64,000 nucleotides of DNA from Bdellovibrionales bacterium (GCA_947502835.1 CANNBJ010000004.1:186001-250000), one strand, 5' to 3'. Positions 14,966-58,522 are shown, counted from the first letter of the stretch. The notes: generated from the sequence alone by a model not told the origin. Numbers and translations: made by a program.

Positions 14966-16264
14966 TCACTGCAGATAGGGGCTCCACTTCGGGGCAACAC
15001 AGGTTCCCATCCCGAAGGTGAGGCGCCTGACCTTGCTCCCGTCATTGTTCATGACAAAGATGTTCTTTCCCCCCGAACGGCTGGAGGAAAACACAAGGAA
15101 GGAGCCATCCGGACTGTAATGGGGATCTTCGTTGTTCCCCTCATCTTTGGTCAGGCGGTCGATCTTGCCTCCATCCGAAGTGATCGTGAAGAGGTCGAAA
15201 CGGCGGTCGAGCCATCCCGCGAATACGATCTTGCCGCCATCCGGCGACCAGTTCGGGGTGGCATTGTAGGAGCCCGCATAGGTGAGACGTTTGACCTCAA
15301 GTGGATTTCCCAGGTCCAAGGTGTAAATCATGGGCTTTCCAGGTCTTGAGGAGACAAACGCGAGTTTCCGTCCGTCGGGACTGAAGGCGGGATCGACGTC
15401 AAAGCCGAGGGAGCGGGTCATTTGTGTGCTTTCCTTGGTCTCGAGATCGAGAAGATGGATTTCGGGATTCCCCGTGTAGCTCATTGTGTAGGCGATCTTC
15501 TTGCCATCCGGGGAGTAGCTGGCCCCCGAGTTGATTCCGCTGCGATTGCTGAGGAGTTTCAGGACGCCCGTACGGAACTGGTACTCGAACAGATCTATGT
15601 TTTTGACGTTCCCGGAATGCCGGTTGTACACCGAAAACGCGATCTTGCTTCCATCCGGACTCCACGAGGGGGCAAGCGACAGAGAGCGCAAACGGGTTAC
15701 CTGCCGGATGTCACCGCCATCAAAAGATGAGGTGTAGATTTCCTTTTTCCCCGACTTGTCGCAAACAAAGGAGATCCGGGTCAGGAAGATCCCTTTTTTT
15801 CCGGTGATGGCGAACACGATGTCGTTGGCAATGGTGTGTCCAAGCGTTTTCCAATCCCCGGATTCGGTGGAATACCGTTTTGCGAGGATTTCATTTCCGC
15901 CCCCGACTGATGCGAAATGGAACTCAAGTGAGGCCGACCCCTTGCTCTCGGTGAAGCTTCCGAACCCCACATAATCACTTCCGGTCTTTGCCCAGTCTCC
16001 CACCTTGAGATCGGCAAGGGTTGCGATCGAGGTTTGAGGAAAGGCGCTTGCCGGCAACATGCGGAATTGGTCCGTGAACTCAAGGTCCGCAGAAACGGTT
16101 TGCTCGACGATCTTGAGAGCTGCCAGCTCGGACTCGCGGGTCACTTTGCTTTGCGTGAGAGCGACGACCGGTTTTTTTGTCTTTGCTTCGCCCACCTGAA
16201 GGTAGGTGGACTGGGCGGATGCGGTGAGGTTGAGAAAAAGCAAGGCGAAGAGAGGAGTTCGCAT
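14966..16264 (-). CDS. tolB: Tol-Pal system beta-propeller protein TolB
   Basis: The 432-residue protein (start ATG 16264) has a signal peptide MRTPLFALLFLNLTASAQS. An N-terminal alpha/beta domain is followed by a beta-propeller built from WSPDG/YSPDG/FSPDG repeats: APSWSPDGSKIAFS, GASYSPDGKKIAYT, DPAFSPDGRKLAFV, TPNWSPDGGKIVFA and DPHYSPDGSFLVFS. It is periplasmic and in the Tol system binds Pal and TolA during outer-membrane constriction. An ATG 69 nt upstream lies inside the tolA region and was rejected. It ends the tolQ-R-A-B operon here; no pal gene follows, since an Hpt-like gene comes next. Confidence 0.9.
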   Translation of the reverse strand: MRTPLFALLFLNLTASAQSTYLQVGEAKTKKPVVALTQSKVTRESELAALKIVEQTVSADLEFTDQFRMLPASAFPQTSIATLADLKVGDWAKTGSDYVGFGSFTESKGSASLEFHFASVGGGNEILAKRYSTESGDWKTLGHTIANDIVFAITGKKGIFLTRISFVCDKSGKKEIYTSSFDGGDIRQVTRLRSLSLAPSWSPDGSKIAFSVYNRHSGNVKNIDLFEYQFRTGVLKLLSNRSGINSGASYSPDGKKIAYTMSYTGNPEIHLLDLETKESTQMTRSLGFDVDPAFSPDGRKLAFVSSRPGKPMIYTLDLGNPLEVKRLTYAGSYNATPNWSPDGGKIVFAGWLDRRFDLFTITSDGGKIDRLTKDEGNNEDPHYSPDGSFLVFSSSRSGGKNIFVMNNDGSKVRRLTFGMGTCVAPKWSPYLQ

Positions 16265-16283
16265 GGGCTCTACCCTAAAGTCA

Positions 16284-17033
16284 TCAAAGAGGAAATCCAA
16301 GCAAAATCCCCTGACTTCCGATCTCTCCCGCAATCGCAGGGGGGGGAAGGGGGAAGGGGTTTGCGGCGTGCAGGGTGCGTTTCACCTCCTGGTCAAATGC
16401 ATCGCTTCCCGAGGACTGGACAAACTGGAAGGATTTCATCCGTCCTTGGGAATCGAGGTAGACCATGACCTTTGCCGATCTGCCCTGATCCTGGAGCCAC
16501 TTCGGGAGCTCCCAATAGGTTCGCACCCGTTCCAGAACGACATCAAAATAGCTCGTTTCGAGAGCCTGCTTTGCCTCACCGGTCAGGGCGGAACCCTTCG
16601 AGACCTGATTGCCCTTGATTTCATCCTCGCCGGCCAGTGCTTTCACACGCTCCAGGGCCTTGATCCTCTCCAGGGCACGTTTCAGTTTGGTTTGGGCTTC
16701 CCTTTCCTTCTTGGATTCTTCCTTTTTCTTGGATTTCTTTTTGGTGGAAGAGAAGTCACCCTTTTCGATTTCGGGAGCCACTTCGGACTTCACGGGGGCC
16801 GGAGCCGGTGGGGGCGGGACCTCTTTTTTTTCTTCGGTGGGTGCGGGAGCGGGCTGAGGAATTTCAGAGCGTTTCAGATCGGGAAGTCCCACGAGGTCCA
16901 CCCGGAGGGTGGGGAGAAAGACTTTCGGCTCGGAGGGGCTGATCACGCTCTTCAGCGCAAGGAACATGGCTAGCGTGAAGTGGAGGAACAATGAAATGCG
17001 AAATGCTCTGGCAAGAAGTTCGTTCTGGGCCAT
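16284..17033 (-). CDS. tolA: TolA/TonB-like energy-transducing protein
   Basis: The protein has about 249 residues. An N-terminal transmembrane helix (FRISLFLHFTLAMFLALKSV) is followed by a Pro-rich region (PPPPAPAPV), a Lys/Glu-rich helical stretch (KKKSKKKEESKKEREAQ) and a C-terminal TonB-C-like domain (TYWELPKWLQDQGRSAKVMV ... SSGSDAFDQEVKRTL). This is the TolA layout, spanning the periplasm to link the TolQR motor with TolB/Pal, though the helical domain is much shorter than in E. coli TolA (421 residues). Two starts are possible: GTG 17042 directly after the tolR stop, or ATG 17033; the ATG was taken. Position in the operon supports the name. Confidence 0.8.
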   Translation of the reverse strand: MAQNELLARAFRISLFLHFTLAMFLALKSVISPSEPKVFLPTLRVDLVGLPDLKRSEIPQPAPAPTEEKKEVPPPPAPAPVKSEVAPEIEKGDFSSTKKKSKKKEESKKEREAQTKLKRALERIKALERVKALAGEDEIKGNQVSKGSALTGEAKQALETSYFDVVLERVRTYWELPKWLQDQGRSAKVMVYLDSQGRMKSFQFVQSSGSDAFDQEVKRTLHAANPFPLPPPAIAGEIGSQGILLGFPL

Positions 17034-17042
17034 GCCTTGCAC

Positions 17043-17474
17043 TCAGTCGGTTCCTTCCGGGGCGGTGACGAGACCCACCCGGCTGATCTTCGCTTTTTTG
17101 ATTTGGGCCATCACCTTCGCGACGACGCCGTAACTGACAGATTGATCCGCCTCCACAAGGACCTGGAGATTGGGTTTGGCGATCGAAAGAGCCGTCAGTT
17201 TTTCAAAGAGGGCGCTTTTTGCGATCGGCTTCTGATCGAGTTCGAGGGTTTGATTCCCCCGTATCGTGAGAACAATCGGGTCCTCGGATTGGGGGAGGCT
17301 GCCGGAGTCCGCTTTCGGGAGGTTCACCTCGACCCCCTGTTGCAGGAGAGGCGCGGAAACCATGAACACGATCAACAGCACAAGCATCACATCCACCATC
17401 GGCGTGACGTTGATCTCGGCCAAGGACACGCGACCTGATTTAGGAGTCGATGCGGGATTCAGACCCATGGGCAC
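17043..17474 (-). CDS. tolR: Tol system motor protein TolR
   Basis: The 143-residue ExbD/TolR-family protein has a single N-terminal transmembrane helix, TPMVDVMLVLLIVFMVSAPL. It carries the proton-binding Asp28, and a periplasmic domain ends in a typical 'QVLVEADQSVSYGVVAKVMAQ' block. It forms the proton channel with TolQ. Its start (ATG 17474, alternatively ATG 17468) overlaps the 3' end of tolQ by about 35 nt. It is one of three ExbD/TolR-type proteins in this window; the other two belong to the separate motor operon at 55,999-56,938. Confidence 0.9.
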   Translation of the reverse strand: MPMGLNPASTPKSGRVSLAEINVTPMVDVMLVLLIVFMVSAPLLQQGVEVNLPKADSGSLPQSEDPIVLTIRGNQTLELDQKPIAKSALFEKLTALSIAKPNLQVLVEADQSVSYGVVAKVMAQIKKAKISRVGLVTAPEGTD

Positions 17475-18174
17475 TGGCTCCTCTTTGTTTGGAAAGCAGG
17501 CTTCGCTGAATCATGTTCAGGTATTCCTGCGAAAAACTTTCGACATCGAGACTGATTTTTTTCATCCGGTTCACCAGCGTATTGTAGGCGATGGCCGCGG
17601 GAATGGCTGCCGCAAGGCCCATGGCGGTTGCGATGAGCGCTTCCGAGATTCCCGGAGCCACCACAGCCAGGGAGGCGGAGCCCATGGCACCGATGCTCTG
17701 AAACGAACCCATGATCCCCCAAACGGTTCCGAACAGTCCGACAAACGGCGCTGCACTCGCGGTGGATGCAAGCCAATCGACATATTTTTCAAGTTCCTCG
17801 ACTTCGAGGGCATGGCTGCGATTCATGGCCCGTGTGATGTTCGCAATTTCAGGGGTACCTTCAGGGCTTCCTTGCTGAACCGGGAGTTTCCGGAGCTCCC
17901 GGTACCCTGAGCTGAACACCTTGGCGATTTGTGAATCAGGAAACTCCTCGAGTTTCTTGTGGATCTCATCGAGGCTGCTCGAGTTCCAGAAAAGATCGAC
18001 GAACCCGCGGTTCTGGTGGGTGGAGTTCTTGATCATTTTCCATTTCAGGTAGATCACGGCCCAAGTGACCACCGATGCTGCAAGAAGGAGGAACAGAATG
18101 AATTTGACGAGGGGGCCTGCGTCCGAAATGAGGCTCCATGTGCTGAGATGAGGGGTGATTGCTTTCGGGTTCAT
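17440..18174 (-). CDS. tolQ: Tol system motor protein TolQ
   Basis: The 244-residue MotA/TolQ/ExbB-family protein has an N-terminal transmembrane helix (VKFILFLLLAASVVTWAVIYL). Two further helices in the C-terminal half contain the conserved APFVGLFGTVWGIMGSFQSIG and APGISEALIATAMGLAAAIPAAIAYN stretches. It forms the stator ring with TolR that uses the proton motive force. The gene starts by ATGA overlap with the upstream CPBP-like gene, so the whole block is probably one transcript from about 19,020 downwards. The order Q-R-A-B is the classical tol order. Confidence 0.92.
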   Translation of the reverse strand: MNPKAITPHLSTWSLISDAGPLVKFILFLLLAASVVTWAVIYLKWKMIKNSTHQNRGFVDLFWNSSSLDEIHKKLEEFPDSQIAKVFSSGYRELRKLPVQQGSPEGTPEIANITRAMNRSHALEVEELEKYVDWLASTASAAPFVGLFGTVWGIMGSFQSIGAMGSASLAVVAPGISEALIATAMGLAAAIPAAIAYNTLVNRMKKISLDVESFSQEYLNMIQRSLLSKQRGASAHGSESRIDS

Positions 18175-47836: not shown

Positions 47837-48555
47837 GTGTTTCGGATTCCGGTGGGAAAAAGAGAGTGTTGATTGTTGAGGATGAGCCTCTTTTGCGTGA
47901 GGTTCTTCGCGATTTTTTGTCAGAACACTTTGAGGTTTCCGAGTGTGCAACAGGGGTTGATGCAGTGCGCCTTGCAACCGAACTCCACCCGGATGTGATC
48001 TTGATGGATGTGATGATGCCCGGGATGGATGGAATCACGGCGGTCAAGAAGATCAGGGAAAGCGAGGAAACCCGATTGATCCCCGTGTTGATGCTGACCG
48101 CAGTCAATTCCACAGCCAACCGGATCGAGGCATTTGGTCTAGGAGCGGATGACTACATCGCCAAGCCCTTTGATTTCGATGAGGTGTTGGCACGGATCAA
48201 ATCCAAGCTTTCAAGGATCAGGGATTTCCAGAAAAGACCCGGCTCGAGGGTTGAGTTGGGCAATTTGGTCATGGAAAAGCGGAGCCGTGAGGTGTTTGTT
48301 TCAGGAAAGATCATCGATCTCGGACCCGTCGAGTATGGAATCCTCGAGCTCTTGCTCGATTGCGACGGGGGAGTGGTGACCCGAAAGGGCATCATGGATG
48401 GAGTCTGGAAAGATGACACAAAAAACGATCGCTTGATTGATGCGCACCTTACGTCCTTGCGAAAAAAGATTACGGACTTCTCAGGCGAAATCCAAACGGT
48501 CTACGGAGAGGGGTACCGGATCAAGCTTACAACTGGTACCCAAGTCCAAAACTGA
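47833..48555 (+). CDS. OmpR/PhoB-family response regulator
   Basis: The 240-residue protein has a receiver domain with acidic VEDEPLLREV, phospho-acceptor Asp59 in VILMDVMMPGMDG and the Lys in DDYIAKPFD. A C-terminal winged-helix Trans_reg_C domain follows (FVSGKIIDLGPVEYGILELL ... YGEGYRIK). It is a DNA-binding two-component output protein. Translation is coupled to the radical SAM gene by ATGA, and no histidine kinase gene is adjacent, so its kinase must be elsewhere. The 3' end overlaps the convergent outer-membrane gene by 29 bp. It may regulate the upstream enzyme genes or the opposed motor operon. Confidence 0.88.
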   Translation: MSVSDSGGKKRVLIVEDEPLLREVLRDFLSEHFEVSECATGVDAVRLATELHPDVILMDVMMPGMDGITAVKKIRESEETRLIPVLMLTAVNSTANRIEAFGLGADDYIAKPFDFDEVLARIKSKLSRIRDFQKRPGSRVELGNLVMEKRSREVFVSGKIIDLGPVEYGILELLLDCDGGVVTRKGIMDGVWKDDTKNDRLIDAHLTSLRKKITDFSGEIQTVYGEGYRIKLTTGTQVQN

Positions 48556-49243
48556 TTGCGTCGCTGGTATTGCTCCGGGTTTGTGAGCTTCCTGCCGTGT
48601 TCTTCACGGTTTCCTTGAAGCCAAGGACACGGTAGTCCAGATGCAACACGATGTTCCGGTTGATGTGGATTTTTTGGCCGATTCCGATGAAGGGAGCAAT
48701 GTTGTTTCCGTTCTCGCTGTTCATGACCCCGGCCCCCCCGAGCAGGAATAGATCGACATAGATGATCATCTTCCCCAAGAGAGAGGCCTTTCCGTACAGG
48801 AAGTTCTCGTTGAGTTGAATCCCGTAAAAGCTTTTCGGAGTGTTTCGGAACAGGTCTGCAGTCGGCGCTTCCGCTTTGAGTGATTTATATGCTGCGGAAT
48901 CGCTCACGCTGCTCTTCCAAGCGATTCCATGCACGCTGAAGTACTGCGAAAAGTAGTAGCCGATGGATCCGCCATAATTCGAAACCGATTGAAATGGATC
49001 ATACGAGAGGCTGCCTGCGAGGAGATCAATCTCAAATCGTTTTTCGTTTGAATATCTCCTGTTTTGAACCACGCCCAGTTCCGAGTCTTTTCCCTGTGCC
49101 CAGTATTTCTCTGTGACTTTGGAAACATCCACAGCCTCTCCCTCAAGGGATGGAGCAGGCGCTTTTGATGCAGGAGTCGAGGTCTCGGCAAACCCTGCGT
49201 GGGGAAGAGAAAGGGCGAGAGCGAAAAAGATCCATCTTTTCAT
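48527..49243 (-). CDS. Outer-membrane beta-barrel protein of the Agl/Glt-like operon
   Basis: The 238-residue protein (start ATG 49243, MKRWIFFALALSLPHAGFA) has a signal peptide. Its domain reads VSKVTEKYWAQGKDSELGVVQNR, then strand-rich segments (YGGSIGYYFSQYFSVHGIAW) and a final ISFGLGYQL. The 'EKYWAQG...VVQNR' opening is like the outer-membrane barrel family shared by Myxococcota and relatives (I recall it as OMP_myx_plus). It is the last gene of the ten-gene motor operon, 27 nt after the GYF gene. In that setting it could be the outer-membrane partner of the machine. A longer start at 49255 is possible. Confidence 0.65.
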   Translation of the reverse strand: MKRWIFFALALSLPHAGFAETSTPASKAPAPSLEGEAVDVSKVTEKYWAQGKDSELGVVQNRRYSNEKRFEIDLLAGSLSYDPFQSVSNYGGSIGYYFSQYFSVHGIAWKSSVSDSAAYKSLKAEAPTADLFRNTPKSFYGIQLNENFLYGKASLLGKMIIYVDLFLLGGAGVMNSENGNNIAPFIGIGQKIHINRNIVLHLDYRVLGFKETVKNTAGSSQTRSNTSDAISFGLGYQL

Positions 49244-49270
49244 AAGTGATTCCATCCTATGGGTTCAATT

Positions 49271-49741
49271 CTACAACGGGGCCGCAGCATCATGCCAAGA
49301 AAAACGAAGAAGGGTTCCCTCGGTCGTCGACTCCGCAGCCTGGAAGGTAACCTTTGCATTCGAGGTCTTGAGATGGGTTTCATCGACCAGGTTCAGAGTC
49401 AGGGGAGCGGATGTGGAAAGCCCGTTCCATTCTCTTGACTCTTTGGGAAGAAGGATCTCCAGGCCATACGAGTGCATTCCCTTGACCACTCCACTCAATG
49501 CCTTGCCGCGATGCTGGAAGGCGCCGCTCAGGATCCTCTCCTTTAAGGTTTGCAACGAGGCTTGAAAGGGGTTTTCCGTGGGCATCCCCTCAATCGGACT
49601 CCAGGTCTGGGTCGCTTCATCCATCATCCAGGAGTAGGAGAGGAGCTTCCCGGTGGTGCGCATTTCCTCGATTTTGGATCCCGATACGGGGCCCGTCAGT
49701 TTTCCGGACTTGAACAAGTAGTAACGGTTTTGAGTGCTCAT
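49271..49741 (-). CDS. GYF-domain protein with PilZ-like C-terminus
   Basis: The 156-residue protein starts at ATG 49741, coupled by ATGA to the TPR gene upstream. The N-terminal part (YYLFKSGKLTGPVSGSKIEE ... TQTWSPIEG) is a GYF_2-type domain, a small peptide-binding fold. The C-terminal part (FQHRGKALSGVVKGMHSYGLEILLP) resembles a PilZ domain, with an RGKALSG-type turn in place of the RxxxR motif; the match is weak. It has no signal or membrane segment, so it is cytoplasmic. In Myxococcus GltJ (AgmX) a GYF domain is part of a larger membrane protein; here it stands alone. Confidence 0.6.
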   Translation of the reverse strand: MSTQNRYYLFKSGKLTGPVSGSKIEEMRTTGKLLSYSWMMDEATQTWSPIEGMPTENPFQASLQTLKERILSGAFQHRGKALSGVVKGMHSYGLEILLPKESREWNGLSTSAPLTLNLVDETHLKTSNAKVTFQAAESTTEGTLLRFSWHDAAAPL

Positions 49742-51483
49742 TTTTCCCTCTTCATCAGGCTGAGTTTCAGGAACTTCTCTTTTGCATTGCACTGGCTCTG
49801 GACGTCGGCCTTGAGAGCGCCCAGCTCGTCTTCCCATACCTCCGAGTTTTCGATGTCGGATGCGAGAAAGTGCCCCCAGCTCCAGGTTTCCGTGTGATCC
49901 GGGCCTGATTTTTCTTCCATGAGATCGTCCTTTTTTGCCTCGAAGTCCGGATGAGCATTCTTCCAGACGATGTCCTGGCTTGCGCCATTGTAGATTTCGA
50001 TCTCGATCAAATCCGAGTTGTCGCGCACATTTCGGAGAACCGCGAGGAGTTTCTGGTTCTTCTTGTTGAAATCCGAATTCACGCGCTTCACGAGTTCGGC
50101 CCTCATGCCCGGAAGTCGTTTTTCATAGCTGCGGGCGAGAGCCTTCCAAACCTTGGATGCCCGATAGAATTGGCTTAGTTTCCTCTGATCACGCTTCAGC
50201 GTTGCATACCGGTCCGAGAACTCGGGCGCCAGGGTTTGATTGCTCTTCAGCTTCAAGTTCGCGATCCTCACCTCTTGAATGAAAGCGGTGGCCCTTGCTA
50301 CCCATTCCTTGCTCAAGCGAACCTGTTCCGAATAGGCCTTGCTTTCGGTGTCTGCGATGAGCTTCGGATGGGAGATCATCTCATTGATTTCAGTCTGGCG
50401 GGTGAGGAACTCGGGGCGGCGAATCCATTCGGTGGTGAGCTTGGAAGGAGCCACCTGCACATTCTTGATCGCCTTGAGGGTCAGGTCGTATCCGTCGGTG
50501 CGATTCGTATTCTTTTTGAGCCAGTTGAAGCTGGCTAGATAATCCTTCACAAACGCTTGCACCATGCGGATCGATTCCGGATAGATGCAAAGCTCGTTCA
50601 GGGCCATTGCCGAGACCATGATGGGCTCGGGAGCGAAGGTGTGTCTTAGGCCTCCTGATCGCAACTGGAGGGCCACCCCGATCGCATCGTCGTATTTTTC
50701 CTGAAGAAGATATGCCCAGGCAAGATTGGAGAGTGCCTCGATCTGCTCGTTCGAGGTCTTCTTTACTTTCTGGAACTCGTCAGCCGCTTCCTTGAAGCGG
50801 GCGGTGGCGTAAAATGCGCGGCCCAGGAGCAGATGTGCCTGATCCTTGTAGCGGGAAAGGAAGCTTCCGGGGTGGGTGAGGAGATACTGAAAGTAGACGG
50901 AAAATCCTTGGATCGCATCGGCATACTTGCGGTTCTTCAGGCTGTTCACACCCGTCAAGAACCCCTTGTGGGCAGGCGAAAGCTTCGAAACAAGCGGCGA
51001 GTCCTTGCCCATGAGATTGAGGAGAAGGACATCCGAGTCTCCCTCGGTCCAGGTGAGTTGGGCTACGGTGGACAAGTCGGGGGCCCTGAAATCCGGACTC
51101 ACCATCTGAATCCGGCTCATGCAGGAATACGCGGCTTTCTTCAGATCACGGTTTTCAGTGTTCTCAAAAACGGAACTGAAGGCCTGATACGAAAGGGGCA
51201 TGATCTTGAGTTCGAACAGGACCCTTGCCACCCAATATTCCGAAAAATCCTCTTCGAAGGCCGAGTTCCCCATGACCGAACTGATTCTCTTCAGTTGTAC
51301 GGCGTGGGCAAATGCAGTCACATTCTGCGAACGACGGGCGGAGAATTCATGGAAATCCCGAAGCCAAGAGGGGGAAGATCCCTTTCGATTCAGGTTCCAG
51401 TGTTCCGTCGTCAAGCAGGGGTCCTGCACTTCGGCCAGCACTGCGGGGGTTGCAAACAGGATCAGGAGTGGAAGGATCTTCAT
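49738..51483 (-). CDS. TPR-type periplasmic protein of the Agl/Glt-like operon
   Basis: The 581-residue protein has a signal peptide (MKILPLLILFATPAVLA). Helical repeats with TPR-like alternation occupy about 90-330: 'YADAIQGFSVYFQYLL', 'LLLGRAFYATARFKEAADEF' and 'EALSNLAWAYLLQEKYDDAI' are clear repeats. A long coiled helical region follows (VRLSKEWVARATAFIQEVRI...), then a C-terminal domain with EIEIYNGASQDIVWKNAHPD. It is probably periplasmic and could link motor and outer-membrane parts. Compare AglT/GltE-like TPR proteins of myxobacterial gliding; homology is not proven. GAGG precedes the start. Confidence 0.65.
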   Translation of the reverse strand: MKILPLLILFATPAVLAEVQDPCLTTEHWNLNRKGSSPSWLRDFHEFSARRSQNVTAFAHAVQLKRISSVMGNSAFEEDFSEYWVARVLFELKIMPLSYQAFSSVFENTENRDLKKAAYSCMSRIQMVSPDFRAPDLSTVAQLTWTEGDSDVLLLNLMGKDSPLVSKLSPAHKGFLTGVNSLKNRKYADAIQGFSVYFQYLLTHPGSFLSRYKDQAHLLLGRAFYATARFKEAADEFQKVKKTSNEQIEALSNLAWAYLLQEKYDDAIGVALQLRSGGLRHTFAPEPIMVSAMALNELCIYPESIRMVQAFVKDYLASFNWLKKNTNRTDGYDLTLKAIKNVQVAPSKLTTEWIRRPEFLTRQTEINEMISHPKLIADTESKAYSEQVRLSKEWVARATAFIQEVRIANLKLKSNQTLAPEFSDRYATLKRDQRKLSQFYRASKVWKALARSYEKRLPGMRAELVKRVNSDFNKKNQKLLAVLRNVRDNSDLIEIEIYNGASQDIVWKNAHPDFEAKKDDLMEEKSGPDHTETWSWGHFLASDIENSEVWEDELGALKADVQSQCNAKEKFLKLSLMKREK

Positions 51484-51489
51484 GATTCA

Positions 51490-52665
51490 TCACCTCGACA
51501 AGCTTTTGAAAATGAATGGATAGGTCACGGCAACCATGACGCCACCACGAGGGTGGGGAAACTTCCAGGTTTTCAGCTTTCCAAGAAGACACTGTGTGAC
51601 CTGCGAGTCCTTCAGGCTTGCTTCCAGCACCCCCGCATTGGGAACCACGCCCGTGGCATTGATTTTGAAGTCCACCAGCAGTTTCCCGGCAATGGTCGGA
51701 TCCTTCAGGATTCCTGATTCATAACAATAGCGGATTTCATTCATGTGACTGTGAATCACGCGGGCCACTTCTTCTTTGGTGAGCCCTTCATCCACGGATG
51801 CGTCCTGGGTATTCAGGCCAACTTCAAACTGTCCGTTGCCCTGTCCCTTGATGCTGAGGCCCTGGCCGTTTCCATACCCGCCATCGCTTCCAATCCGCGG
51901 TTTCCCGACCTCTGCAGCGCCAAGAAGGCCGTCGGCCTTCTTCTGCAGGCCTGACCCGAGAAGGGTCTCGCTAGCGGAGATTTTCTGCGAAAGATTCTGG
52001 ATTGCCTTTCCGGTCGCCATGACCGAGTACTTCGAGAGGCCGCTCTTCAGGATGCTCCTCAGGCTGTTCTGAACGGTCTTGGTTTGAAAAGCCCTGGCAA
52101 CGGCCTTGGACTGGGCCCGTGCGCTGGCAACACCTCCCGTGGTGGGGGATTTCACTTCCTTCGGCTTGGTCAGAATGATTTTGGCAAACTTCTGGGGAAT
52201 GATCGCTTCATCCGTTTTGACCTCTGGCTCTAGGAGCTTTGATCCGACCACGGTGATCAGCAACACCGAAAGCATCGCAAGACCTTGTTTCAAGTGTCTC
52301 TTGAACAAGACATCCTCGGTAGCCGCCGTAAGGACCGAGGAGAGGGTGAAGGGAAGATCCTTCGGGACCAGGTTCCAGGCCACCGGAGCCACGGTTCGAA
52401 GTTCGGTAAGGGTGATGGTTTCCTTGGTCTGTGTGGACAGGAATGCGGGCGCACCACTCAAGAGATGATCGAAATCCAGAACCCGCAAGGACTCCACGGT
52501 CCCTGACTCGGTGGTGAAATTCCTGACCCACAAGGAGTTCCCCCGGCGTTCGAGCATGTACCGGACGGGGTGTCCCAAGGAGATCATGGATCGTCCATCC
52601 CAACGAAGAGGGAGGGACTTGCCGAATTTGACAAGGTATTTTGGCTGATGGAAGTTCGCGCTCAT
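51490..52665 (-). CDS. AgmX/PglI-tail (TonB-like) trans-envelope protein, GltG/GltJ-like
   Basis: The 391-residue protein has a cytoplasmic N-terminal region (1-125), a transmembrane helix (127-145, LKQGLAMLSVLLITVVGSK) and a linker. The C-terminal domain (about 300-391) carries MNEIRYCYESGILKDP, QVTQCLLGKLKTWKFPHPRG and VAVTYPFIFK. This CYE...WkFP...YPF pattern is the AgmX/PglI C-terminal domain, a TonB-like fold of proteins that span the envelope in the Glt system. The N-terminal part does not show clear FHA motifs, which GltG has. It overlaps the small gene upstream by ATGA and sits among motor genes. Confidence 0.75.
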   Translation of the reverse strand: MSANFHQPKYLVKFGKSLPLRWDGRSMISLGHPVRYMLERRGNSLWVRNFTTESGTVESLRVLDFDHLLSGAPAFLSTQTKETITLTELRTVAPVAWNLVPKDLPFTLSSVLTAATEDVLFKRHLKQGLAMLSVLLITVVGSKLLEPEVKTDEAIIPQKFAKIILTKPKEVKSPTTGGVASARAQSKAVARAFQTKTVQNSLRSILKSGLSKYSVMATGKAIQNLSQKISASETLLGSGLQKKADGLLGAAEVGKPRIGSDGGYGNGQGLSIKGQGNGQFEVGLNTQDASVDEGLTKEEVARVIHSHMNEIRYCYESGILKDPTIAGKLLVDFKINATGVVPNAGVLEASLKDSQVTQCLLGKLKTWKFPHPRGGVMVAVTYPFIFKSLSR

Positions 52666-52919
52666 TTCAATAACCTCATTTCCGTGAGGAGGGTTTCATC
52701 GCGATCGGTGAAGCCGGATCGCTTTTTATAAAGGTGATTTTTCGCTTTCTTGTTCCGTTCGCTGATCTGATTGAAGGCATCGAGCGGTTTGCGATTGATC
52801 CCCTCGACGAGCTCATCCTCGAAATTGATGTTTTTCGAGCGCTTGGACTCTTCTGCCTGAACGGGGGAGGCCAGAAGGATCATCACTGTGAAAATCATGA
52901 AGTTAAAGGGTTTCATCAT
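52662..52919 (-). CDS. Small exported protein in the Agl/Glt-like operon
   Basis: The 85-residue protein (start ATG 52919, or the adjacent ATG 52916) has a signal peptide (FNFMIFTVMILLASPVQA) and a short, charged, helical mature part (KRSKNINFEDELVEGINRKP...). It overlaps both neighbours: the upstream TPR gene stop at 52,916-52,918 and the downstream start at 52,662-52,665. AGAGGA lies 5 nt upstream. Function is unknown; the mature part is only about 65 residues, so it may be an adaptor or a processed peptide. Confidence 0.55.
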   Translation of the reverse strand: MMKPFNFMIFTVMILLASPVQAEESKRSKNINFEDELVEGINRKPLDAFNQISERNKKAKNHLYKKRSGFTDRDETLLTEMRLLK

Positions 52920-55900
52920 TTTTTCCTCTGAAAGAGTTGGGTTACGGTTGATTTCCACGGGGAGTCCGGAGCGCTCTCGATCAGGGCAAGTGCCTCGGAC
53001 GGGGTTCCACTCAAAAGGAGCACCAAGCCCTTCAGGATGGGAGCCACTCCCTTCTTTCCCAGTTCGCTTTGTTCATAGGCCGATACCAGGTGAAGCAGGT
53101 AGTCTCTTTGCTTGAGTTCAACGCCTTTTTTCCATTCCGCCCAGACGCTTTCGGGGAGGGATGCCTGAACTTCATTTGCAAGCAAGAGTGCATCGGCATT
53201 GGGAGCCTTCAGAACGACCGACATCTGGTCGACCTTGTCCATTGCCGCCCTCATCTCCACAACCTTGGTTTGGAAGGGTTTCAGGAGGTCCTCGGGGGTA
53301 TTGATTCCCTTCAAATCGGATACCAGACGCTCGTATACGAGGGTCAGTTCCACAATTGCCTTTCTCTTGAGATCGATCCAATTCAATTTCATGGCCTTCG
53401 AGAAGGCAAGGTCGAGTTCCTGCATGAGTCGCATCCTGCGTTCGATGCTGCTTTGGTCGGCGGTCAGGGGAGCAATCCCCGGTGCCGAGATCCGGATGCT
53501 TTCAAGAGTTTCACCGGTTCTGGAAATGAGCTTCGGAACCAGGTGGATCTGCAGGTTCGGATTCAGGTTCTCCCAGGAGTGGGAGAGGCGCTGAAGGAGC
53601 ACCAGGCGGTCCTGGAATGCGAGTTTCTTCGGGTTCCTCATTGCGATCAATGCCCAGATTGCCTGAACTTCCTTCTCGGCCTTGAGGGTGTTCCGGAACG
53701 ATGTCGCATAGGGGACGCCCGCTTCCTGGCTCTGGTCCAAGATCCGGATCAGCCGGTATTGTTCACAGGCCGGAGCGTTCTTCCCGGTGCATACGGACTT
53801 GTTCGAGAGGAGCTGGGACAGGCGAGTCTGGTCGTTTTTCAGCCAGGAGTACTCGAGAATCTGTTTTGTGATCTCCACGTCCTGATATTGGGTGAGGGCC
53901 TGGTATCGCTCAAGATCCTGGATGGATTCATCCATCTTGCCAATTTTCCTCCTGGCGTCCGCACGCAGGAGGATCAGCGACTGGTTCTTTTGTGCATCGA
54001 GCTTGATTTCCACCAAACGGCCGAGCTCTTTTTCCGCGCGAGCGGTTTCATTCATCGAAAGGAGAGTCTTTGCGTGGATGATGTCACATTCGACTTTGAT
54101 TTTGGTTCCTGCGAACTTCTTGGAACACTCCTCGGTTCTCTTGAGAGCCTCGGCAGGGTCCTGGGTCTTCAAGGTGATCTTCAGGTGGGCGCTCGCGGAC
54201 ATGTCCGCAATCGCCGCGGGAAGGGTTTTCGATTTGAATTTGAGGGACTTCACCTTCTGGGTCAGCTCAAAGAGCCGCTGCCAATCCTCGCTCTGAGAAA
54301 GGGTGTCGAGCGCAATCGAAATGGCAAGCGTGCCTTCCTCGGTTTCCGAACGCTTGGAGCCGAACTGAACCAGGTTCTGAACGGCGGCCTCGCGATCAAA
54401 GTAGAGGTAGCCGATCTTGTATGACTCGAGAACGAACGCCCGGAGACTGTTTTGTTCCTCTGCAGAGGCCTTTCGGAAATCAGCGCCCGCGATGGTGTTC
54501 ACCCACTCAAGCATGGATTGGAGTTGTTCCTTACTTGCCGGTTCGGGCTTGGCATTCAGTGCCCTGACTTGCAACTTCTCCGGAATCAGGTCCTGTTTCT
54601 TGAGCTCCCGGTACCGGGCGGAGAGCCAGCGCAGGGTGATGGCGGGGATCGAGAGTTTCTTGGCTTCAAGAGCCGGTGCAAACTCCGGCTTCATGAGTTC
54701 CGAGTAACGCTTTCCGGCTTCCTTGTACTCTCCCAATTCAAACAGGGTTTCTGCAAGGGAGTATTTTGAGAGGAGGGATGTCGAGTTGTCGCGTCCGAAC
54801 AGCTCCTCCACCGACTCGGTGAGTGTGATCAGGGGGCGGACGAGGACTCCGCGCTCGGTGGCCAATTTGTTCTTGATCACGAGCTTGTGGAGATCATTCA
54901 GGGAACTGGTCAGGATTTGTTCCATTTTCGGTTGGATTTTTTCGTTTCGCAATCCCTTCAGTTCACCAATGAGGGGGGAGATCTGCCCCCAGTTTCGCTT
55001 CTCGAAATGATATTGATACAGAAGGAGCGCCACTTCCGCGGTCTCCGGAAGGTCATGGTGTTTCTGTACGAGCCTGTTCTTCAAGGTCTCGAGTTCGGAA
55101 GTCAAGGTGTATGCCTTGAGAAGCTTTGCGAATTTGTACACAACCGTCCCGAAGTAGGAGCCTTTCAGGTCGATTTTCTTGAAGGTTTCGAGTGCCTGAT
55201 CCACGCTGGCATAATCCTGCTTCTTGTTGATCCCCTCGAAATTGAACAAGGCAAGATCGTTGAAGGCGCTTTCCAGAAAAGCAGTCTCCGCTGTGGTGTC
55301 TTCCTTCTTGCCCTCGATCCGTGCGAAGTAGAATTCGGTCTCTTTACTGAGCTTTTCAATCGCAGCCTGATATTGGGTCAGGTTGAAGTGACTCCATGCC
55401 GCTTTGTGGAGTGCGATCGGATAGAAGTCCGAATCCTTCATTTTTTCGATTTGTCCCAGGAATCCTAAGGCGTCCTGGTGCTGATTCGCATCCTGTGCGA
55501 AATCGGCAAGATCCATGAGGACCGAGTCGAGGTATTCGAACTCAGGCTGATTGTGAACCAGATAGAGGTAGTCTGCCTTGGCAAGCTCCACGAGCCCGAG
55601 CTCGCGGTAAGCCTTGCCGCGCTTGAAGTGCGACACCGGGGAGTAGCCATGATAAGGGTACTTTGCGATCAGTTCGCTGAGTGCCTGGATTCCGTTCTTG
55701 AGCGCATCCGAGTAAAGAGGGGATTTGTTCTTGATCGAGGTGCCTTCGCTGATCCGGAAGGAGATCCCCGAGCTTTCCAGATAGAGGTCCCCGAGACGAT
55801 GCAGAAGATCAGCCTCCTGTCGGGTCCCGCGGTACTGTTTCAGGAGACGTTTGAGCTTGGCAATCCCTTTGCTCTGAATGGAAAGCGCCGCCATGTCATG

Positions 55901-56002
55901 CACCGCATTCGAGTTCGATGCTGGAGGTGCTGCGAGCGCGGAGCCGTGCCCGCCAGCAAGCATTGCGACCAGGAGTGCGGAGAAGCCCGTGCGAGGTTTC
56001 AT
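52916..56002 (-). CDS. Large TPR-type periplasmic protein of the Agl/Glt-like operon
   Basis: The 1028-residue protein has a signal peptide (MKPRTGFSALLVAMLAGGHGSALA) and an almost wholly helical body of TPR-like repeats. Clear examples are 'EADLLHRLGDLYLESSG', 'SHFKRGKAYRELGLVELAKA', 'HQDALGFLGQIEKMKDSDFY' and 'DARRKIGKMDESIQDLERYQ'. Such proteins form long superhelical scaffolds. In the Glt system large periplasmic TPR proteins (GltC/D/E/I types) fill this role. Start ATG 56002 overlaps the stop of the second ExbD gene (ATGA). It is the largest gene of the window and long antisense frames within it are codon-bias artefacts. Confidence 0.7.
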   Translation of the reverse strand: MKPRTGFSALLVAMLAGGHGSALAAPPASNSNAVHDMAALSIQSKGIAKLKRLLKQYRGTRQEADLLHRLGDLYLESSGISFRISEGTSIKNKSPLYSDALKNGIQALSELIAKYPYHGYSPVSHFKRGKAYRELGLVELAKADYLYLVHNQPEFEYLDSVLMDLADFAQDANQHQDALGFLGQIEKMKDSDFYPIALHKAAWSHFNLTQYQAAIEKLSKETEFYFARIEGKKEDTTAETAFLESAFNDLALFNFEGINKKQDYASVDQALETFKKIDLKGSYFGTVVYKFAKLLKAYTLTSELETLKNRLVQKHHDLPETAEVALLLYQYHFEKRNWGQISPLIGELKGLRNEKIQPKMEQILTSSLNDLHKLVIKNKLATERGVLVRPLITLTESVEELFGRDNSTSLLSKYSLAETLFELGEYKEAGKRYSELMKPEFAPALEAKKLSIPAITLRWLSARYRELKKQDLIPEKLQVRALNAKPEPASKEQLQSMLEWVNTIAGADFRKASAEEQNSLRAFVLESYKIGYLYFDREAAVQNLVQFGSKRSETEEGTLAISIALDTLSQSEDWQRLFELTQKVKSLKFKSKTLPAAIADMSASAHLKITLKTQDPAEALKRTEECSKKFAGTKIKVECDIIHAKTLLSMNETARAEKELGRLVEIKLDAQKNQSLILLRADARRKIGKMDESIQDLERYQALTQYQDVEITKQILEYSWLKNDQTRLSQLLSNKSVCTGKNAPACEQYRLIRILDQSQEAGVPYATSFRNTLKAEKEVQAIWALIAMRNPKKLAFQDRLVLLQRLSHSWENLNPNLQIHLVPKLISRTGETLESIRISAPGIAPLTADQSSIERRMRLMQELDLAFSKAMKLNWIDLKRKAIVELTLVYERLVSDLKGINTPEDLLKPFQTKVVEMRAAMDKVDQMSVVLKAPNADALLLANEVQASLPESVWAEWKKGVELKQRDYLLHLVSAYEQSELGKKGVAPILKGLVLLLSGTPSEALALIESAPDSPWKSTVTQLFQRKK

Positions 56003-56484
56003 TCCTTGATCACTCCGAACTTCACTTCCGAATAGCCATTTTTTGCAAGGGTTCTCAGCACCATTTTCATGGTGGAAAAGGGTACGTTCTGATCGGAGAG
56101 AAGGATTGCGCGGGCATCGTCCTTCACGGAGTCGTTCGCCTTTGCAATCAGTTTCTGGCGCTCCCGCTCCTTGGAGAGGCGCTGATCAAATGATTTTTCG
56201 AAGTTTTTGTAGTCGGAAACGAACTCCTTTTCAACCAGGATGCCCTTGTCGGATAGCTCCACTTGAAGTGCGGACTCTGTCAGGGCGGTGGTATTCAGTC
56301 CAGCCGGGAGACGGGTTCCGTTCGAGGGAGAGATGGTGAGTGCGTCAGAGGCGATCCCTTTCAAGAGGAAAACCAGAAGGATGGTGAAAATATCTGCCAT
56401 CGATGTGATTTGAAGGCTCATTTGTCCCGTGTCTTTCGGGGCCTTGTTTTTTTGGAAGAGTCTTCTTCTTCTGGATCTCATCAT
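55999..56484 (-). CDS. Second ExbD/TolR-like motor protein (AglS/AglQ-like)
   Basis: The 161-residue protein starts at ATG 56484 (or 56481), with AGGAG 7 nt upstream. A basic N-terminus (MMRSRRRRLFQKNK) is followed by one transmembrane helix MADIFTILLVFLLKG, whose Asp31 sits at the proton-binding position. A periplasmic domain ends with KMVLRTLAKNGYSEVKFG. An extended form beginning 93 nt further upstream overlaps the preceding gene and was rejected. Two ExbD-like genes behind one TolQ-like gene repeat the AglR-AglQ-AglS order known from Myxococcus gliding motors. Confidence 0.85.
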   Translation of the reverse strand: MMRSRRRRLFQKNKAPKDTGQMSLQITSMADIFTILLVFLLKGIASDALTISPSNGTRLPAGLNTTALTESALQVELSDKGILVEKEFVSDYKNFEKSFDQRLSKERERQKLIAKANDSVKDDARAILLSDQNVPFSTMKMVLRTLAKNGYSEVKFGVIKE

Positions 56485-56494
56485 AAAGGATCTC

Positions 56495-56938
56495 CTAAAA
56501 CTCCCCGACAATGACGGGAAGGTTGGCACGATTGAGGTGGCCCATGACCTGGGAGAGGGATTGGAATCCCACCTCATCGTCTGCGGAAACCAGGATCTGG
56601 GTGAGTTTGTATTCGTTCGATTTCAGGGCATCGAGTTCGGCTTCCATGGTCTTCACGGATTCAGGCTTAGAGAGGTCGAAACGAATGGTTCCGTTCTTTT
56701 TGCCCTTTTCCCGGAATTCTGCGATCTGGTTTCCCTTCACCCTTACTACCAGTTCTGTATCGGGTTCTGTCTGAGCCGCATCCACCGCATTGCCGGGGGT
56801 GCTGACTTCGAAGAAGCCGATACTGAGGAAGCTCGCCGAGGCGAGGAGGAAGGTGATCAGAACGGTGAAGCAATCAATGATCGGAGTGATGTTGATATCG
56901 ACATCCTGGCTGTTGTTGCTTCCGAAGCTCGCGCTCAT
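56495..56938 (-). CDS. First ExbD/TolR-like motor protein (AglQ/AglS-like)
   Basis: The 147-residue protein has one N-terminal transmembrane helix (ITPIIDCFTVLITFLLASAS) with Asp22 at the proton-binding position. The periplasmic domain ends with TQILVSADDEVGFQSLSQVMGHL, a normal ExbD block. Start ATG 56938 overlaps the TolQ-like stop (ATGA), so it is coupled to its motor partner. It differs from TolR at 17,043-17,474 in sequence, so this is a separate motor, not a copy of Tol. It pairs with the second ExbD-like protein to form the rotor core in the inner membrane. Confidence 0.88.
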   Translation of the reverse strand: MSASFGSNNSQDVDINITPIIDCFTVLITFLLASASFLSIGFFEVSTPGNAVDAAQTEPDTELVVRVKGNQIAEFREKGKKNGTIRFDLSKPESVKTMEAELDALKSNEYKLTQILVSADDEVGFQSLSQVMGHLNRANLPVIVGEF

Positions 56939-57588
56939 GAGTTTCTCCGATCATCCGGGGTGCCGAGACTTGAAACCATGATGGAATCAAGCACCAGGAG
57001 CCCGGCGGATTCGAGTTCTGCAACGAGACGATTCGCCTTGTTGATGAAGAAGCTGAATACCACCATGCAGGGAACTGCAACGGCAAGACCGAGCATGGTC
57101 GCATTCATCGCAGTGGAAATCCCGTTGGCAAGAAGGGTCGCCTTCTGCTGGGGATCTGCATGACCCACTGCCGCGAAGGATTCGATGAGACCCGCAATGG
57201 TTCCAAGGAGTCCGAGAAGGGTAGCTACGTTGGCAATGGTCGCAAGATAGCTGGTGCGCTTCTGAATCTTTTCCGAGTATTTGTTCCGTGCCATCTCGAT
57301 CGAGTTCATGATGAGCTCTTCGGGCTGATGTGCCCGCTCAAGTGCGCTCTTGATCAAATCCGCGCTTGGCTTTCCCGAGAATTGGTTGCAGAGGGCGACT
57401 GCATCATTGAGTCTTCCCTTTGAGACGAGCTCCCGGATTTTGTCAAAGAACCCGTCAACATTCTGGATGGAATATCCTTTGAACAGGGTTTGCGCGCGTT
57501 CGACGATGATCGCACCCGCGATGATTCCGGCCGCGAGGATCGGGGCCACATGCATAAAATTGTTTTTAATGAATTCGAAAAATTCCAT
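56935..57588 (-). CDS. TolQ/ExbB/MotA-like motor protein (AglR-like)
   Basis: The 217-residue protein has an N-terminal membrane helix (HVAPILAAGIIAGAIIVERAQ). Two further helices carry the conserved LATIANVATLLGLLGTIAGL and ANGISTAMNATMLGLAVAVPCMVV stretches of the MotA/TolQ/ExbB superfamily. It forms a pentamer around two ExbD-like subunits and uses the proton motive force. AGGAG lies 6 nt before ATG 57588. Its place next to two ExbD genes, TPR proteins and an AgmX/PglI-tail protein supports an AglR-like role instead of classical TolQ, which is encoded at 17,440-18,174. Confidence 0.85.
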   Translation of the reverse strand: MEFFEFIKNNFMHVAPILAAGIIAGAIIVERAQTLFKGYSIQNVDGFFDKIRELVSKGRLNDAVALCNQFSGKPSADLIKSALERAHQPEELIMNSIEMARNKYSEKIQKRTSYLATIANVATLLGLLGTIAGLIESFAAVGHADPQQKATLLANGISTAMNATMLGLAVAVPCMVVFSFFINKANRLVAELESAGLLVLDSIMVSSLGTPDDRRNS

Positions 57589-57598
57589 ATCGTTCTCC

Positions 57599-58522
57599 TT
57601 ATTTCTGGTTACAAGCCCATTCTTGTTTTTGAAGGACGTTCCAATCGCGCATCATTGCGCGATCGTTCAGCCCACTATTGGTTCTGGCGAGAGCTTGGAG
57701 TTCCTTGCTCTTTGCCTTCAATTCTTTTGAGTCTGCATCCACTCCTGCCTTGCCCCAGGAGTCCTGAAATTCATCGGCATGGGCGTCGCTGAGGAGGTCG
57801 TCCATGAAACGTTTTTTGGGGGCGGTACAGGATTCGCGGCATTGCGCTGCACCGGTGCAGTAGGAAATCCGGATGAGGCTTTCCGGACCGACGACCGGCC
57901 CGAGAACGATCTCTTCCTTGCCCTTGGATTTCAGGACCTGGAATTCAACAGGTTTCTGGTTCACTTTTACGCAAATGCTTTTTTTGTTCACGTTTTCAGC
58001 GGCAAGGGGAAATGCATTTGAGAAATCGAGGAAGCTTTCAATGTCCTTCGCCTTCGCCGATTCATGGTGACGGTATTCGAACGTGTAACAATTCTTGATT
58101 GCCTCAGGTTTTGCGGCAAGCGGCTTCTCCGGGTTTTTCGGATTCGCTTCAGACTTTGATTTCATTCCCTCAGCGCTTGAGCCGACCGCAACTGCAGCAG
58201 AAGTGAGCGCAGCGGACGGAGTTTCGGAAGATGGACGGGATGGATCCTGCTCTGCCGGACTTTGCGTGTTTGCGGTGGCGGGATCGGACGTAACGGGCAC
58301 TGCTGGAACAGGAGCGGCCTCGGCAGTCTCGGGCTGTGCTTTCTCAGGAGACTGGGTTTCGCTGTTTGCGAGTGATTCCGGCTGCGATTTCTCAGCCTCG
58401 CCTGGAGCGGGGGAGTTGGATGTGGTCGGGGTTTGTTCGGAAGTGGTGCTGGTCTTTTGCATGAAAAACCAGGTTCCTCCCACAAGGGCGAGCACCGCTA
58501 TGATGATTCCAATCTTCCGCAT
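57599..58522 (-). CDS. Anchored periplasmic protein, first gene of the Agl/Glt-like operon
   Basis: The 307-residue protein starts at ATG 58522, fixed by AGGAGG 5 nt upstream; a start at 58549 is less likely. It has an N-terminal transmembrane anchor (IGIIIAVLALVGGTWFFM), a long Ser/Pro/Ala/Glu-rich linker (about 28-140) and a compact C-terminal domain. The C-terminal domain has six Cys (KNCYTF, SICVKV, SYCTGAAQC, SCTAP, WACNQ) that could form disulphides in the periplasm. It opens the operon just 10 nt before the TolQ-like gene. No known Glt homologue was recognised; it may be a lineage-specific subunit. Confidence 0.55.
   Translation of the reverse strand: MRKIGIIIAVLALVGGTWFFMQKTSTTSEQTPTTSNSPAPGEAEKSQPESLANSETQSPEKAQPETAEAAPVPAVPVTSDPATANTQSPAEQDPSRPSSETPSAALTSAAVAVGSSAEGMKSKSEANPKNPEKPLAAKPEAIKNCYTFEYRHHESAKAKDIESFLDFSNAFPLAAENVNKKSICVKVNQKPVEFQVLKSKGKEEIVLGPVVGPESLIRISYCTGAAQCRESCTAPKKRFMDDLLSDAHADEFQDSWGKAGVDADSKELKAKSKELQALARTNSGLNDRAMMRDWNVLQKQEWACNQK

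Follow-up and report, generated by a model that had tools for sequence, protein, structure and literature searches.

A 64-kb stretch of the 2.73-Mb draft genome of a Bdellovibrionales bacterium (G000:C4:186001-250000; hereafter the window) contains an operon of ten minus-strand open reading frames (ORFs), 48,527-58,522. Judged from its sequence, the operon appears to encode a proton-driven, envelope-spanning motor of the Agl/Glt family, together with one undescribed subunit, g1, and, linked to them, a putative regulator whose PilZ domain is degenerate. We consider it likely that these products form an Agl/Glt (expanded core complex)-type trans-envelope machine, powered by the proton-motive force and serving gliding or another surface force role. 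The operon is assigned to the Agl/Glt type because its products match GltG, AgmX/PglI, GltC, CglF and TIGR04565 models and because its gene order is kept in dozens of genomes. The machine would be of a known kind in a variant form: its genes form a single operon, one subunit is additional and specific to the order, the PilZ partner is degenerate and the linked adhesin gene has been lost.

The ten ORFs lie on one strand at the places given in an earlier reading of the window (the first-pass annotation), and neighbouring genes overlap or sit a few bases apart. All ten products are conserved in both sequence and order, with identities falling from 100% in close relatives to about 20-60% across the order; the operon's AglR is 100% identical to that of the drafts Bdellovibrionales bacterium RE-15aug16-115 and REEB465. 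Because the products are conserved in this way among related genomes, chance ORFs are excluded. Promoter and terminator scans returned sites no more numerous than in shuffled sequence; at that level, the best promoter-like site (58,605-58,578) fits the start of the operon by its position and a terminator-like stem (48,494-48,473) fits its end. An Rfam search upstream of g1 for a riboswitch, which if of the cyclic-dinucleotide type would be a possible control, gave no match.

Motor, transducer and outer-membrane components

By their sequences, AglR, AglQ and AglS have the composition of an ion-driven motor in the inner membrane. As the first-pass annotation had it, one protein is TolQ-like (PF01618) and two are ExbD/TolR-like (PF02472), and the membrane aspartate of the latter two is invariant in the seed alignments (D22 in AglQ, D62 in the long reading of AglS). 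The ribosome-binding site and the relatives make a later start for AglS more likely, at 56,484 or 56,481, which gives a protein of 160-161 residues. The motor proteins score far under the TolQ, ExbB, TolR and ExbD equivalog cut-offs; AglR, for instance, reaches 66.8 bits against TolQ (cut-off 221) and 55.6 bits against ExbB (cut-off 206). A canonical Tol set encoding TolQ, TolR, a TolA-like protein and TolB lies apart from the operon at window positions 14,966-18,174, minus strand, and clears its cut-offs (TolQ, 233.9 bits versus 221; TolB, 352 versus 343). Thus, given scores below the cut-offs and a separate Tol set that passes them, the motor is neither Tol nor ExbB-ExbD. In an AglR tree the window's canonical TolQ was placed far from the operon's AglR; with open forks and several long branches, this tree speaks neither for nor against a sister relation of the operon clade to the clade of Bd1481, an AglR of Bdellovibrio bacteriovorus.

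Hidden Markov model (HMM) searches against the Glt/Agl families returned GltG at 1.1e-36, GltC at 1.7e-12 and CglF at 1.4e-3, in line with the Agl/Glt-like character first proposed. The AgmX/PglI tail claimed for the protein at 51,490-52,665 is present, scoring 103 bits against NF033768 (cut-off 40); it is TonB-like and lies on the periplasmic side. Since this protein reaches 126.7 bits on the GltG equivalog model, versus a cut-off of 650, it is related to GltG but is no equivalog. TonB_C was detected in 23 of its 31 homologues, and the domain search recognised FHA neither in the operon's GltG nor in any of the 31. The GltC-like protein likewise stays under the cut-off of NF033756 (46.9 bits versus 450), and GltD homologues are found in 32/40 related genomes. 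Both of these large tetratricopeptide-repeat (TPR) proteins, GltD and GltC, bear export signals, as does GltF.

The 85-residue protein had been put forward as a possible new subunit, a candidacy that we dropped: it is probably a homologue of CglF, which is GltF. On its own the match is weak (E=0.0014), but the slot is kept in relatives, and the 82-residue protein that fills it in B. bacteriovorus matches NF033764 at E=1.3e-4. The outer-membrane barrel recognised in the first pass passes TIGR04565 (81 bits versus 60); it is assigned at the level of this family and not matched to one M. xanthus barrel of the GltA/GltB type. The description of the machine as complete was not supported, as the operon has no VWA lipoprotein and no GltE-type TPR gene, and a search with family models recognised no GltH, GltI, GltJ or GltK homologue in it.

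Table 1. Products of the operon in the order of their genes, with the evidence for each assignment
Feature	Coordinates	Strand	Evidence
g1, 307 residues: N-terminal membrane anchor, proline-rich linker, C-terminal six-cysteine domain	57599..58522	-	new family
AglR-like MotA/TolQ/ExbB-family motor subunit	56935..57588	-	PF01618 2.7e-27; homologues phylum-wide
AglQ-like ExbD/TolR-family subunit, membrane Asp22	56495..56938	-	PF02472 3.7e-15; Asp invariant, 13 homologues
AglS-like ExbD/TolR-family subunit	55999..56577	-	PF02472 1.9e-11; Asp invariant, 12 homologues
GltD-like exported TPR protein, 1028 residues	52916..56002	-	TPR/ybgF matches; flanked by AglS and GltF, also in relatives
GltF/CglF-like exported protein, 85 residues	52662..52919	-	NF033764 CglF E=0.0014; same slot in relatives
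GltG-like protein, 391 residues: one membrane helix, AgmX/PglI (TonB-like) C-terminal domain	51490..52665	-	NF033760, NF033768
GltC-like TPR protein, 581 residues	49738..51483	-	NF033756 GltC 1.7e-12
Cytoplasmic GYF_2 plus degenerate PilZ protein	49271..49837	-	homologue domains, profile match, AlphaFold2 model, fold neighbours
Outer-membrane beta-barrel, TIGR04565 (OMP_myx_plus)	48527..49255	-	TIGR04565 81 bits versus cut-off 60; PF13505 7e-4

g1, a nearly order-specific subunit

g1 is a real new family that is nearly order-specific and co-occurs with the operon. It was found in 36/192 sampled genomes of the phylum, 33 of them within the window's order, and not in two Bdellovibrio genomes tested. 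Among 39 relatives, 24 of the 27 genomes that match GltD strongly (E<1e-30) carry g1, and no g1-positive genome is without a GltD match. Consistent with the suggestion that the 57,599-58,522 protein might be a new subunit, its globular domain belongs to no Pfam or NCBIfam family in any of 35 homologues; a weak GltJ match (residues 4-141) spans the anchor and linker only. The AlphaFold2 (AF2) model shows a helix at residues 4-22, disorder to about residue 140 and a domain with a predicted local distance difference test (pLDDT) score >90 over roughly 141-220. A fold search of the PDB gave nothing at E<=0.001, the best of its scattered, low-scoring matches having E=0.046. C145, C184, C228 and W294 are invariant, C222, C232 and C304 are nearly so, and in some homologues a lipobox-like GC or SC takes the place of the plain helix.

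A GYF protein with a degenerate PilZ domain

The protein first described as a cytoplasmic GYF protein does carry GYF and has no export signal, which places it in the cytoplasm; a second, degenerate PilZ domain had been missed. Its start is probably at about 49,741 (156 residues) rather than 49,837, as indicated by the ribosome-binding site and the relatives. GYF_2 is detected in 6/13 homologues and PilZ in 1/13, and a profile-profile comparison (probability 97.2, E=4e-11) aligns both domains with those of a Bdellovibrio GYF-PilZ protein. The latter, encoded at locus L140, scores 48 bits for PilZ, whereas PilZ is under detection in the 12 other window-type homologues. Fold neighbours of the AF2 model (mean pLDDT 86) include the PilZ structures 5y6g (YcgR) and 5vx6 (MotI), but flavin-reductase split barrels reach the same scores, and none of the matches has an E value below 0.001. 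The likeness to the PilZ motor brakes YcgR and MotI/DgrA lies in these fold neighbours; the difference is that the canonical cyclic di-GMP (c-di-GMP) motifs RxxxR and DxSxxG are absent from the window's protein.

Two further Glt-type sets are encoded in the same genome, both on contig C1 (G000:C1). Set B (L034:6159-15698) comprises a barrel, AglR, AglQ, AglS, a GltE-like TPR protein, GltD-like and GltF-like proteins, GltG and PilZ; its GltG bears an FHA domain and a 393-residue TPR protein fills the GltE slot. Set C (L035:1221-10104), with no motor genes adjacent to it, comprises a barrel, a TPR protein, a 1220-residue GltD-like protein, GltF-like and GltG-like proteins and a GYF-PilZ protein in which two stretches are GYF-like. 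In both sets a canonical PilZ gene adjoins GltG (L034:6159-6821 in B, L035:9214-10104 in C). A PilZ or PilZ-like protein therefore accompanies all three Glt sets of the genome, and we infer that the PilZ-like protein may control the motor. The genome also encodes an MglA-like small GTPase (L185:1459-2055), assigned by eye from sequence motifs and an Arf-family match.

Gene order in relatives and the VWA lipoprotein

Gene order was compared, as the first-pass annotation had suggested, across 80 named loci and 27 other loci of relatives. A shared order was found across Bdellovibrionota, usually g1 - VWA - AglR - AglQ - AglS - GltD - GltF - GltG - barrel - GltC - GYF. The VWA gene encodes a lipoprotein of ~560 residues with a metal-ion-dependent adhesion site (MIDAS) motif, DxSxS, in which D60, S62 and S64 are invariant, and it matches CglD and NF052240, a model of Bdellovibrio MIDAS adhesins; we had considered this gene as GltE and dropped that assignment once the motif was seen. 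It lies just upstream of AglR in 16/16 Bdellovibrio-type loci and in 26/50 others with enough flank, counts that, like the others on gene order, are descriptive and no independent test, since the HMMs behind them were seeded partly from the same genomes. Two records titled Nitrosovibrio (L081) and Lysobacteraceae (L129) also carry a Bdellovibrionota-type operon and are probably misnamed drafts.

Although it is present in the relatives' operons, where it resembles the CglB/MIDAS (VWA) surface adhesins in its DxSxS motif, the VWA/MIDAS lipoprotein is not encoded in the window's operon. In one congener a divergent VWA copy lies directly upstream of g1, and the window's genome encodes two VWA/MIDAS lipoproteins on contig C3 (L074:5423-6811 and L074:14250-15566), about 7 kb apart, which are possible surface adhesins for Glt motors. 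Because the congener keeps its copy near g1 while those of the window's genome lie on another contig, the VWA gene appears to have moved or been lost within the genus.

Counterparts in Bdellovibrio and Myxococcus

The core of the operon is already known from Bdellovibrio, for which Luciano 2011 reported four expanded core complexes (PMC3169522). The nearest described counterpart of the window's operon is Bd1473-Bd1483 of B. bacteriovorus. In strain kdesi, the locus L140 reads VWA - GYF-PilZ - AglR - AglQ - AglS - GltD - GltF-like - GltG - barrel - GltC; we take it to be Bd1473-Bd1483 from gene content and published tags, not from a comparison with the HD100 sequence. In both, AglR, AglQ, AglS, GltD, GltG and the barrel are encoded in one operon, along with GltF-like and GltC-like proteins and a GYF-PilZ-type protein. 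The window's operon differs in having g1 and no VWA gene. Its GYF-PilZ-like gene, whose product has a degenerate PilZ domain, is found towards the 3' end and not ahead of AglR, its barrel gene comes last, and AglR is about 45% identical between the two.

Within the B. bacteriovorus cluster, Bd1480 is aglQ (PMC9140294), Bd1482 is a PilZ protein (PMC3271064), and insertions in Bd1481, which is aglR, and in the cluster protein Bd1483 impair biofilm predation (PMC2277423). Expression of bd1480 is induced on surfaces. In a sister cluster, the aglS gene Bd0838 is required for prey attachment (PMC6561027).

For Myxococcus, comparisons were made with NCBIfam models and PMC3169522. The M. xanthus AglRQS-Glt system resembles the window's operon in its motor trio, GltD, GltG and an outer-membrane barrel, and probably in GltC and GltF. 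It differs in being spread over three clusters (M1, G1 and G2) rather than held in one operon; the window's operon, for its part, is without recognised GltE, GltH, GltI, GltJ and GltK, and its GltG is without a recognisable FHA domain.

Discussion

In the mechanism that we favour, proton flow through AglRQS would move GltG, and force would pass from GltG to GltD, GltF and GltC, on to the barrel and from there to a surface adhesin, with the outcome that the cell glides or exerts force on a surface. In relatives the adhesin would most likely be the VWA/MIDAS lipoprotein of the same operon, and in the window's organism it would act in trans, encoded elsewhere in the genome. The GYF-PilZ-like protein would control the motor from the cytoplasm, and g1 would be a subunit specific to the order, located in the periplasm or at the outer membrane. 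The core order shared with kdesi, the VWA gene upstream of AglR and the MglA-like GTPase all count in favour of a gliding or surface force role, as do the insertion phenotypes of Bd1481 and Bd1483, the surface induction of bd1480 and the part of the aglS Bd0838 in prey attachment.

Several points weigh against this interpretation. Gliding has not been observed for the window's uncultured lineage, and parts essential in M. xanthus (GltE, H, I, J and K) were not recognised in the operon. The best gliding candidate according to Luciano 2011 is Bd0828-0838, not Bd1473-1483, and core complexes are also present in bacteria for which gliding is not known (both PMC3169522). Bd1483 was later studied as a MIDAS lipoprotein, and its deletion caused no invasion defect (PMC11003981). 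Furthermore, any of the three Glt-type sets of the genome may be the one that glides.

Some of these points suit an Agl/Glt-type motor with a non-gliding job, such as export or positioning of a surface polymer or outer-membrane remodelling at prey entry, which we regard as rather unlikely. Besides the core complexes of non-gliders, the presence of three Glt-type sets in a single small genome points to split roles, the four sets of B. bacteriovorus differ in regulation (PMC2797640), and the window's set has no adhesin gene of its own; moreover, in Myxococcus an Agl-Nfs machinery, Nfs with AglRQS, drives spore coat assembly (PMC3858216). However, close relatives retain in their operon both a VWA adhesin and a protein of PilZ or PilZ-like type, an arrangement more in keeping with surface motility than with the assembly of a polymer, and bd1480 of the Bdellovibrio counterpart is surface-induced. 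It is highly improbable that the operon encodes a conventional ExbB-ExbD/TonB or Tol-Pal system serving uptake or the stability of the outer membrane. The TolQ-like and TolR-like proteins match broad Pfam families, but the equivalog scores, the window's own Tol set and the AglR tree speak against it, and the partner genes are of Glt type and include neither a TonB-dependent receptor nor TolB or Pal.

Returning to an Agl/Glt-type surface motor, its unusual features in this order of Bdellovibrionota might be read jointly, in a scheme that we offer as doubtful. The GYF-PilZ protein would descend from a cyclic-dinucleotide-controlled clutch acting on AglR or GltG and, after losing canonical c-di-GMP binding, would now be a constitutive or differently triggered regulator, and g1 would be a new disulfide-stabilised subunit of the envelope whose acquired coupling role freed the VWA adhesin from the operon.

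According to a 2026 review (PMC13104615), the components that act as motor, as adhesin and in force transmission when Bdellovibrio glides have not yet been identified. The conserved Bdellovibrionota operon unites within a single transcription unit a motor, a transducer, a barrel, a VWA adhesin and PilZ or PilZ-like control, and so provides named candidates for each role. Comparison of the operons separates the shared core parts from the order-specific g1, and the question of gliding becomes directly testable in B. bacteriovorus.

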